DNA from: Nitrospinota bacterium
GTDB lineage: Bacteria > Tectomicrobia > Entotheonellia > J063
Assembly (NCBI GenBank): GCA_003696125.1
Contig: RFHZ01000607.1
Span: 1-5,182 of the forward strand
Reading direction: 5' to 3'
Length of the DNA stretch: 5,182 nucleotides
Shown here piece by piece: positions 859 to 5,182 of the stretch. How positions within the stretch are numbered: position 1 is the stretch's first letter; each line of letters begins with the position of its first letter. The translations under genes were made by a program, and so were the position numbers. The notes below the pieces were generated by a model. That model did not search any database. It was not told the origin of the DNA and saw only the letters and a program-made list of their open reading frames with translations.

Positions 859-1069
859 TTAAGTAACTATGACCAACATTTCGAGCATTTTTCTGCCCCA
901 AGAACCCAGCGCTGTCTGCCGGTTTACACCGCCGAGGACGCCGAGGGCGCAGAGCGTTTTTGCTTATGTATCCCGGCGTTCTCTGCGGGCTCGGCGGTAA
1001 AAAAGGTTTTCGGTAACACGTAGCCACACGAGGCAACAAAGTGCAAAAGGGTTAGGAATAGCTACTTAA
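859..1069. mobile_element. Candidate MITE-like non-autonomous element, about 211 bp
   Basis: Nearly the whole spacer is bounded by imperfect terminal inverted repeats. The left end TTAAGTAACTATGACCAAC (859-877) matches the reverse complement of the right end (1051-1069) at 15 of 19 positions, and at 11 of the outermost 12. The outermost TTAA is palindromic, so it may be a 4-bp target duplication rather than part of the repeat; the inner element would then be 863-1065. The interior has no credible ORF and holds a large hairpin at 928-999. These are the traits of a miniature inverted-repeat element moved by a transposase encoded elsewhere. The right end abuts the ribosome binding site of the next gene, supplying the AA of AAGGAGG. 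No family is recognised, and copy number cannot be judged from one window. Confidence 0.55.
928..999. repeat. Large imperfect hairpin of the CGCAGAG/GCCGAG intergenic repeat type
   Basis: The left arm (928-956) begins ACCGCCGAGGACGCCGAG and runs on to GGCGCAGAGCG. The right arm (977-999) reads as its near complement, ending CTCGGCGGTA. About 20 bp can pair across a 20-nt centre. The left arm carries a tandem partial duplication (GCCGAGGAC then GCCGAGGGC), so one copy must bulge out. No run of T follows on either strand, so it does not look like an intrinsic terminator. From memory, similar GCCGAG/CGCAGAG arms recur between genes in many environmental bacteria; that could not be checked here. 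It sits in the middle of the candidate mobile element and may be its folded core. Confidence 0.6.
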
Positions 1070-1076
1070 GGAGGAG
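1068..1076 (+). promoter_or_regulatory. Ribosome binding site of the gamma-glutamyltransferase-like gene
   Basis: AAGGAGGAG lies just before the ATG at 1081, with a 6-nt gap after the AGGAGG core. It fixes the start at 1081. Its first two bases are also the end of the candidate mobile element. Confidence 0.85.
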
Positions 1077-1080
1077 ATTT

Positions 1081-2772
1081 ATGCCCAGGTTCCCAGCGTA
1101 TCGACCCGCAGTCAGTGGCCGGCACTACATGGTCTCTTCTGGTCACTGGCTGGCCAGCCTGGCCGCTGCCCGCGTCCTCCAGCAGGGAGGAAACGCCATC
1201 GATGCCGGAGTGGCAGCCGGACTCTGTACCAATGTGGTGCAGTCAGATATGACCTCGTTCGGTGGGGTGGCAGCCATCATCATCTACCTGGCACGTGAGC
1301 AGCGGGTGGTGACGATCAGCGGGGTCGGCACCTGGCCACAGGCTGTTTCCATCGACCTGTTTCAAGAAAGATATGGGGGGGATATGCCGCTGGGGGTGGC
1401 CCGCTGCTGTGTGCCGGCTGCTCCGGATGCCTGGCTCACCGCCCTGGAACACTTTGGGACGCGCAGCTTTGCCGAGGTGGCTGCCGATGCGATCACGCTG
1501 GCCGAGCAGGGATTCCCCATGCACGCCTTCATGGCCAACACGTTACGGGAGCATCAAAAGGAGATCGCCCAGTGGCCTTCCACCGCCGCCATCTATCTTC
1601 CCCAGGGCCGGGTGCCGCAGGTAGGGGAGCCGTTTTACCAGAAGGACCTTGCCCGCACCCTGCAGCGGATGGTGGCCGCAGAGGCGCAACAGGAGGGAGG
1701 ACGCGAGAAAAAGATCCGGGCGGCACGGGATTTCTTTTATACCGGGGAGATCGGGAAGACCATGGTCGAGTTCTGCCAGCAGGAAGGTGGTTTCTTGACC
1801 ATGGAGGATATGGCTGCCTTTCAGGTGGAGATAGAGGAACCGGTCACCACCACCTACCGGGGGTATCAGGTCTTTGCCTGTGGTCCCTGGTGTACCGGTC
1901 CGGTCTTGCTCCAGATGCTCAACCTCCTGGAGCTTTTTGACCTGCCCGGCCTGGAACACAACAGCGCCGCCTATATGCACCTGGTAACCGAAGCGATGAA
2001 ACTCGCCTTTGCCGATCGAGAACGCTACTACGGCGATCCCCGTTTCGTTGCTGTGCCCATGGACCAGCTCCTCTCCAAGGCCTATGCGCAGGAGCGAGCC
2101 GCCTTGATCGACATGGAGCGGGCCTGGCCTGAGATGCCCCCTTATGGGAACCCTGCTTCTTTAGCCGGATCGACCGGTTCCACTGATCTCGATACCAGCG
2201 CCCTCTGTGTGGTCGATGCCGAGGGGAACGCCTTTGCCGCCACTACCAGCGATACGGTGTACTGGACGCCGGTGGTTCCCGGGCTGGGGATCCCCATTTC
2301 GGGGCGAGGCGGGCAGTCCTGGCTCGATCCGGACCATCCCAGCTCGGTACAGCCGGGAAAGCGTCCCCGCCTGACCCCTAATCCGGCCATTATCCTCAGA
2401 GACGGTCGCCTTTTTGCTCCCCTGGCCAGCCCAGGGGGGGATATGCAACCGCAGGCCATGCTCCAGGTTTTCCTCAACATGGTTCACTTCGGCCTGGATC
2501 CGCAGGAAGCGATCTCTGCGCCTCGCTTTGGTACCTGGAGCTTCCCCAACTCCTTTTATCCCCACGCCTACCAGCCGGGGGATTTAAAGGTGGAGAATCG
2601 TGTGGATCCCCAAACCCTGTCCGCCTTGCGGGCCAAAGGACACCGCCTGGAGGTGTGGCCGGAGTGGGAGTGGCGTGCCGGGGGCGTGGTGACGATTCTG
2701 GTGGACCAGGAACGCGGTGTCCTCTGGGGAGGGGCAGATCCACGACGAGAGAACTACGCCATCGGCTGGTAG
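1081..2772 (+). CDS. Gamma-glutamyltransferase-family Ntn hydrolase, divergent substrate pocket
   Basis: This 563-residue protein has the length and layout of the family. An N-terminal large-subunit region contains QQGGNAIDAGVAAG (34-47), GYQVFACGPWCTGP is at 261-274, and MKLAFADRERYYGDP is at 306-320. The conserved processing site follows at DTSALCVVDAEGN, where Thr372 aligns with the E. coli nucleophile Thr391. Self-cleavage there would give subunits of about 371 and 192 residues. The oxyanion-hole motif SPGG is at 450-453. By hand alignment, the Arg that binds the glutamyl alpha-carboxylate (E. coli FRETAP) falls on SGVGTWP (80-86) with no Arg. The Asp that binds the alpha-amino group falls on Gln412 in GRGGQ. 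The enzyme is therefore probably an autoprocessing amidase of this family, but gamma-glutamyl transfer is not assured. No signal peptide is visible, unlike the periplasmic E. coli enzyme, so it is probably cytoplasmic. It may be read through from the upstream gene, as no promoter is evident in the spacer. Confidence 0.88.
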   Translation: MPRFPAYRPAVSGRHYMVSSGHWLASLAAARVLQQGGNAIDAGVAAGLCTNVVQSDMTSFGGVAAIIIYLAREQRVVTISGVGTWPQAVSIDLFQERYGGDMPLGVARCCVPAAPDAWLTALEHFGTRSFAEVAADAITLAEQGFPMHAFMANTLREHQKEIAQWPSTAAIYLPQGRVPQVGEPFYQKDLARTLQRMVAAEAQQEGGREKKIRAARDFFYTGEIGKTMVEFCQQEGGFLTMEDMAAFQVEIEEPVTTTYRGYQVFACGPWCTGPVLLQMLNLLELFDLPGLEHNSAAYMHLVTEAMKLAFADRERYYGDPRFVAVPMDQLLSKAYAQERAALIDMERAWPEMPPYGNPASLAGSTGSTDLDTSALCVVDAEGNAFAATTSDTVYWTPVVPGLGIPISGRGGQSWLDPDHPSSVQPGKRPRLTPNPAIILRDGRLFAPLASPGGDMQPQAMLQVFLNMVHFGLDPQEAISAPRFGTWSFPNSFYPHAYQPGDLKVENRVDPQTLSALRAKGHRLEVWPEWEWRAGGVVTILVDQERGVLWGGADPRRENYAIGW

Positions 2773-4096: not shown

Positions 4097-4531
4097 ATGG
4101 AAAGAGAGCCGGTACCACCGCGCTTCATCGAGCTCGATCATACGGCCGATGTTGGGGTCATCGTTCAAGGGAGGACGCTTGCCGAACTCTTTGCCAACGC
4201 CGGGTATGCTCTTTTTGCCACCATTGCGGATCTGGCAACGGTAGAGGAGCAGGTGTCTTATACGGTCTCTGCCCAGGGGGAAGATTGGGCCTCTCTCATG
4301 CACGAATGGTTGAGCCGGTTACTTCGCTTTTTTACCTTACACGGGTATCTCCTGTGCCGCTTTGATATTCAAGAGCTTGTCCCCTACCAGATACAGGCCG
4401 AGGTAGGGGGTGAGCCGCTCGATCTGGACAAGCATACCTTCTACACCGAGATCAAGGGGGTCACCTATCACCAGCTCTCTGTCCGGCAGCAAGGGGACGG
4501 ATGGGAGAGCCAGATCATCTTCGATGTGTGA
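4097..4531 (+). CDS. Archease, RtcB-activating protein
   Basis: The 144-residue product matches archease in length and in its motifs. FIELDHTADVGV is at 10-21, EWLSRLLRFF in the middle, EIKGVTYHQL near the C-terminus, and the protein ends FDV. Asp14 and Asp18 in the HTAD motif and the penultimate Asp143 correspond to the conserved acidic, metal-binding face of the family. Archease promotes GTP-dependent guanylylation of the RNA ligase RtcB and makes it a multiple-turnover enzyme. The start ATG has AGGGGAG (4085-4091) 5 nt upstream, weaker than the other ribosome binding sites here. It is the first gene of an operon with rtcB, 25 bp from stop to next start, behind the promoter at 3943-3971. 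It has no signal peptide or membrane segment and should be cytoplasmic. Confidence 0.93.
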   Translation: MEREPVPPRFIELDHTADVGVIVQGRTLAELFANAGYALFATIADLATVEEQVSYTVSAQGEDWASLMHEWLSRLLRFFTLHGYLLCRFDIQELVPYQIQAEVGGEPLDLDKHTFYTEIKGVTYHQLSVRQQGDGWESQIIFDV

Positions 4532-4556: not shown

Positions 4557-5182
4557 ATGGAAAAAGGGAAGATCGAGCTCCATCAAGTGGATACATATGT
4601 CTGGGAAATCCCCCAACAGGGAGAGATGCGGGTACCCGGACGGATCTATGCGAGCAAGAAGATCCTGGAAGAGATTCGCCTGGACGAAAGCCCACAGCAG
4701 GTGGCTAACGTGGCCTGCCTGCCGGGCATCGTGAAGTATTCGCTGGCCATGCCCGATGTCCACTGGGGATACGGTTTTCCCATCGGTGGAGTGGCGGCCA
4801 TGGACGTGGAGGAAGGGGTGATCTCACCGGGAGGGGTCGGGTACGACATCAACTGTGGTGTCCGCCTGTTGCGCACCAACCTGACCTTCCCGGAAGTAGA
4901 GCCTCGCCTGGAGGCGCTGGTGGAGGAGCTGTACCGGAACATCCCGACCGGGGTGGGGGCCAAAGGAGGGATCGGCAAGCTGTCCAAGGCCGAAGTGAGA
5001 GAGCTGGCTGTGAAGGGGATTGATTGGGCCATTGAGCGAGGTTATGCCACTCCGGCGGACAAGGATCGCACCGAAGAGCTGGGGCGGCTGGCCGGTGCCG
5101 ATCCGGACAAGGTAAGTGAGCAGGCCATAGAACGCGGCACCCACCAGGTCGGGACCCTCGGCTCGGGAAATCATTTCCTGGA
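4557..5182 (+). CDS. rtcB: RNA-splicing/repair ligase RtcB, 3' end cut off by window
   Basis: The frame is open from ATG 4557 to the window edge: 208 full codons of a protein usually about 480 residues long. It starts MEKGKIELHQVDTYVWEIP, as in long bacterial and archaeal RtcB. Signature motifs are MPDVHWGYGFPIGG (65-78), GGVGYDINCGVRLL (92-105) with manganese ligands Asp97 and Cys100, and GTLGSGNHF (199-207), where Asn205 is the guanylate-contacting Asn and His206 a metal ligand. The catalytic His that becomes guanylylated lies beyond the window. RtcB joins 2',3'-cyclic-phosphate or 3'-phosphate RNA to 5'-OH RNA using GTP and Mn2+, in tRNA splicing (archaea, animals) or RNA repair (bacteria). 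The site before Cys100, where some archaeal RtcB genes carry an intein, is uninterrupted. The adjacent archease gene suggests an archease-dependent enzyme. The missing part is a window effect, not a mutation. Confidence 0.96.
   Translation, partial: MEKGKIELHQVDTYVWEIPQQGEMRVPGRIYASKKILEEIRLDESPQQVANVACLPGIVKYSLAMPDVHWGYGFPIGGVAAMDVEEGVISPGGVGYDINCGVRLLRTNLTFPEVEPRLEALVEELYRNIPTGVGAKGGIGKLSKAEVRELAVKGIDWAIERGYATPADKDRTEELGRLAGADPDKVSEQAIERGTHQVGTLGSGNHFL

Follow-up and report, generated by a model that had tools for sequence, protein, structure and literature searches.

The 234-bp spacer that separates a gene with a spermine/spermidine synthase domain, ending at position 846, from a gamma-glutamyltranspeptidase gene, starting at 1081, is almost certainly a MITE, to judge from sequence comparison, and about 40 copies and fragments, this one included, are found in its draft genome. 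Overall, the spacer of the 5,182-nucleotide stretch of DNA analysed here (the window) is best explained, with good confidence, as a 205-bp non-autonomous element that duplicates TA on insertion and was moved in trans, likeliest by an IS5-family transposase. The MITE is new as a family and of a known kind. The comparison of copies settles the spacer as a mobile element and defines its true ends and its likely target (TA), and the analysis also names a candidate transposase partner in a phylum that is sparsely sampled, with five genomes in the set. The features of the region are as follows.

1-846, + strand: upstream gene, spermine/spermidine synthase domain (PF01564, E 2.3e-18); its 5' end lies outside the window
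860-861, no strand: left TA, one copy of the putative 2-bp target duplication; TA conserved, flanks differ
862-1066, + strand (orientation of the copy alignment): MITE proper, 205 bp, from genome matches with common ends
862-879, + strand: left terminal inverted repeat (TIR), family consensus AGTARCTATKACTMAC, from the copy alignment
928-998 (arms 928-954 and 981-998), no strand: central GC-rich hairpin of imperfect 9-bp units, from folding
1049-1066, - strand: right TIR, from the copy alignment and a TIR pattern search
1067-1068, no strand: right TA, second copy of the putative target duplication; TTA in 21 of 24 right ends
1081-2772, + strand: downstream gene, gamma-glutamyltranspeptidase (PF01019, E 1.6e-123)

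Ends and gene context of the element

A first-pass annotation had described positions 859-1069 as a gene-less candidate MITE with mirror-image ends and a strong hairpin. These structural observations hold: 859-877 and 1051-1069 are inverted repeats that match at 15 of 19 positions, and at 11 of 12 in the outer part, no recognisable gene lies between them or elsewhere in the spacer interior, and 928-954 pairs with 981-998. An inverted-repeat pair of such quality (span 190-231 bp) is unique within the window, and none comparable was found in three mononucleotide-shuffled windows. The candidate itself is borne out by 42 genome matches with common ends, but its boundaries have to be corrected to 862-1066. 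An 84-aa minus-strand ORF (785-1039) was rejected as evidence for a gene, being mechanical and spanning one edge of the element.

The AGGAGG of the gamma-glutamyltranspeptidase gene (1069-1074) follows immediately after the element and, since both genes point in the same direction, the window copy is probably part of an intercistronic transcript; an effect on the expression of the downstream gene is only hypothetical. Within the element, no promoter-like site and one weak terminator-like site were detected. A likely ribosome-binding site is located directly downstream of several copies (window 1066-1081; L009, L013 and L040), and copies that end just before such sites would reflect either a preferred target or a position that is the only one in which they are tolerated and so survive. 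Elsewhere in the window, adjacent genes for archease (4097-4531) and the RNA ligase RtcB (4557-5182), a known functional pair, are found on the + strand.

Copies in the draft genome

The source assembly is a 4.18-Mb draft in 990 contigs, 94.8% complete and with an estimated contamination of 8%. In a sequence search, from which the genome-wide counts come, the spacer has 42 matches at E below 0.001 in this genome, and about 20 of the copies are near full length. As the first-pass annotation had anticipated for a mobile element, the copies end at the same bases, and their flanking sequences are unrelated; several break off at contig ends, as is usual for repeats in fragmented assemblies. The TIRs are kept across copies in both the alignment and the pattern search: with at most one mismatch allowed, TAAGTARCTATKAC has 37 matches in the genome, and its reversed control has 2. 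Lacking genes, bearing TIRs and present in many copies that end alike amid unrelated flanks, the element was in all likelihood mobilised in trans.

Pairwise identity among 19 aligned copies ranges from 62 to 96% (median 80%), and the closest pairs, among L009, L010, L011, L012, L015 and L016, are 94-96% identical, which indicates that the family holds old as well as younger members. The copies are located between genes, in varying orientation and at varying distance from them. Insertion into genes was considered and rejected, as joining the flanks did not convincingly restore any gene, and start codons lie downstream of the junctions.

The element was found in none of 59 other genomes, including the four others of the phylum, and it had no match in a plasmid collection. 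The nearest genomes examined, which lack the element, belong to another family of the same class.

TA as the probable target duplication

The first-pass annotation had suggested that the TTAA at both ends of the window copy could be a target duplication, a proposal that was rejected on comparing the ends of copies. Counted by eye, the base before TAAG at left ends (n = 10) is T in six, A in two, and C and G in one each, and the base after TTA in the 21 intact right ends, taken from the aligned ends, is A in nine, G in six, and T and C in three each. TTAA stands on both sides in only two of the eight copies with both ends intact, those in the window and on contig C362. As the outer T and A vary while the inner TA is conserved, the outer bases would be due to chance or a mild preference. 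On contig C590, two abutting copies overlap by exactly TA (...GCGACT-TA-AGTAACTATGAC...), and this common dinucleotide, together with the conserved inner TA, places the element proper at 862-1066 instead of 859-1069. The TA might in principle be part of the element, yet a single TA common to the two copies on C590 is what insertion of one copy at the border TA of its neighbour would be expected to leave. The aligned ends therefore make TA, rather than TTAA, very probably the duplicated target.

A candidate transposase

In the proposed mechanism, a transposase supplied in trans would recognise the AGTARCTATKAC inverted repeats and move the element to a new TA dinucleotide, which would be duplicated on insertion. 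The likeliest source of this enzyme would be an IS5-family element ('IS5_3' type, similar to the IS427 group) that survives as a truncated copy on contig C772. The copies, their common ends, the TA borders and the positions between genes are seen directly in the sequences; we infer the identity of the transposase and the direction of derivation, as well as whatever present activity the family may have.

The sole match to DDE_Tnp_1 (PF01609) in the genome lies at the start of C772 (2-232, 88 residues) and belongs to the IS5 family (PF13586, E 3.8e-9; NF033580, 'IS5_3' type, E 3.2e-23). It is truncated, being cut by the contig end, and the assembly contains no second copy of it. Its stop codon is followed by 52 bp, ending in ...ACTTA, and this DNA, read inwards from the presumed end (TAAGTCACTTTTGAAGCTTCTGACGGGTCAGGGGATCAATGCTGTCTAGAAG), is similar to the left arm found in one MITE subfamily, comprising C397, C412, L026, L030 and L040. 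Pairwise alignment of the C772 arm yields a z of 4.1 with C397 and of 3.5 with C412, and the left-arm profile of that one subfamily matches the C772 DNA with an E of 0.0063 among 311 kb of sequence, compared with an E of 1.6 for a profile of all MITE subfamilies. The end on C772 lacks about 10 bp that are found in the TIR of the MITE, and the matching stretch may itself be what is left of a MITE lying next to a defunct transposase gene.

Relatives of the C772 transposase, 38-48% identical to it, occur in two genomes of the same class (G001 and G002) as multicopy insertion sequences bordered by TA, which end about 50-55 bp past the match to the transposase C-terminus (hand count), similar to the 52 bp on C772. 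Elements of the IS5/IS427 group mostly have 2-bp direct repeats and inverted repeats of 13-21 bp (PMC3281130). Like them, the family in the window shows a 2-bp, TA-type duplication, and the truncated transposase in its genome has a similar end; unlike them, the MITE contains no transposase, and its derivation from the group would be read from a single truncated copy, with a TIR that differs by the roughly 10 bp mentioned. Given that the element is a MITE, these similarities incline us towards an IS5-type transposase as its partner.

No complete autonomous transposon sharing these ends, a find that the first-pass annotation had named as prospective support, turned up in the assembly, where the truncated IS5-family candidate was found in its place; such an element may simply be absent from a draft of 990 contigs with 8% estimated contamination. 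Solitary TIRs on C397, C549, C454, C624 and C763 were inspected as possible ends of intact insertion sequences and rejected. Their ORFs are not transposase-like and no second TIR was found beside them, so that these loci look like decayed MITEs.

TIR-like sequences in G002 (TAAGTAACATTTACC) were likewise set aside, since they belong to a different element with a TnpB-like remnant. On G002:C1 (L124-L127), a set of short elements, which share the start TAAGTAACATTTACCAAC and have the ends GGGAATTATATACC and GTATATAATTCCC, gave six matches, of which four were read; three of these four contain an apparent remnant of the TnpB C-terminus (LDRNVNTAVNILVAG). These short elements are a separate miniature family.

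IS630 is the usual TA-duplicating transposase family, and the same MITE might have been mobilised by an IS630/Tc1-mariner transposase, as has been proposed for RUP, a reading that we consider unlikely. Most bacterial MITEs described so far have TA borders, as do Correia elements, and a link has been drawn between RUP and its presumed partner IS630-Spn1 (PMC2229807); however, a search for DDE_3 (PF13358) that matched in 3 of 14 control genomes found no IS630-type transposase in the whole draft assembly, which may be incomplete, and an IS5-type candidate with a similar arm is present instead.

Correia/NEMIS elements of Neisseria and RUP of Streptococcus pneumoniae are small and non-coding, have TIRs and TA ends, and are thought to be moved in trans (PMC2229807). 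The MITE in the window resembles them in its size, its lack of coding sequence, its TIRs and its TA ends, and differs from them in the sequence of the TIR.

A second MITE family

The genome also contains a second, roughly 140-bp MITE family, which has the ends CTTGACAATGTTA...TAACATTGTCGAG, 27 matches and a similar GC hairpin core.

L156-L182, e.g. G000:C832:3088-3233 and C990:4921-5060: members of the second family

Two of its members (L156 and L158) have inserted into left TIRs of the window family. L156 is flanked on both sides by GTAA, and L159 and L170 by CTAT, repeats which suggest a four-base duplication around TA for the second family. Two families with different ends, together with an apparent chimera, have a common hairpin core in the same genome. 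The chimera (L075, G000:C105:4800-5600) appears to join an arm of the window family, at the hairpin, to half of a second-family element.

The central hairpin

For the preferred IS5-moved MITE, the central GC hairpin would be cargo or ancestral baggage. Its arms decay in older copies, which indicates that it is not strictly kept.

That the copies are instead a dispersed regulatory or structured RNA, kept for a function such as one on the downstream gene and mobile in the past only, appears improbable. The whole element folds stably as RNA, with z = -3.85 for the + strand and -2.82 for the - strand (-1.23 when folded as DNA), and the copies in the window and at L009, L013 and L040 lie directly upstream of a likely ribosome-binding site. 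Against such a function, most pairs are invariant in 22 aligned hairpins and none is changed on both sides (covariation term -0.06), so that selection for an RNA structure is not indicated; furthermore, a search of Rfam with the element matched no curated family, orientation and distance to genes vary among copies, and the arms are decayed in older copies.

REP and REPIN palindromes are GC-rich intergenic hairpins present in many copies, a description that fits the hairpin here as well. The hairpin alone could accordingly be imagined as the mobile unit, with the TIR-bearing arms secondary, especially as its motif recurs both in the second MITE family and in the genomes of unrelated families, where a single genome has as many as 120 matches, compared with 0 for the reversed control. 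Unlike REP/REPIN, however, the MITE in the window combines TIRs and TA borders with long arms outside the hairpin, and its copies are homologous over all 205 bp, similarity ending abruptly at the TIRs' outer ends rather than at the edge of the hairpin. These copy boundaries largely refute the hairpin-alone reading for the window's family, and we regard it as very improbable.

With the MITE as the mobile unit, the distribution of its core beyond the two families can be considered separately. Hairpin-like sequence is also found elsewhere in the same genome, and 16 of 193 genomes, from different families, contain the motif ACCRCVGAGGACRCVGAG, whose reversed control has hardly any matches. Among the motif sites, two-armed hairpins account for 15 strand-wise hits at 9 loci, with none in shuffled sequence, and some single motif hits look like coding DNA. 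A literature search by the hairpin sequence found no relevant description in the library covered. It is conceivable, though doubtful, that the 9-bp-periodic GC hairpin (ACCRCVGAGGACRCVGAG...) serves as a portable module, adopted as a core by different MITEs; if so, its spread as a shared module would need a separate explanation.

The dispersed hairpin motif is found in G064, G184, G180, G091 and other genomes (L093-L122). In G064, which has 120 matches, it is partly arranged in a tandem array with a period of about 100 bp (G064:C2:26528-27003).
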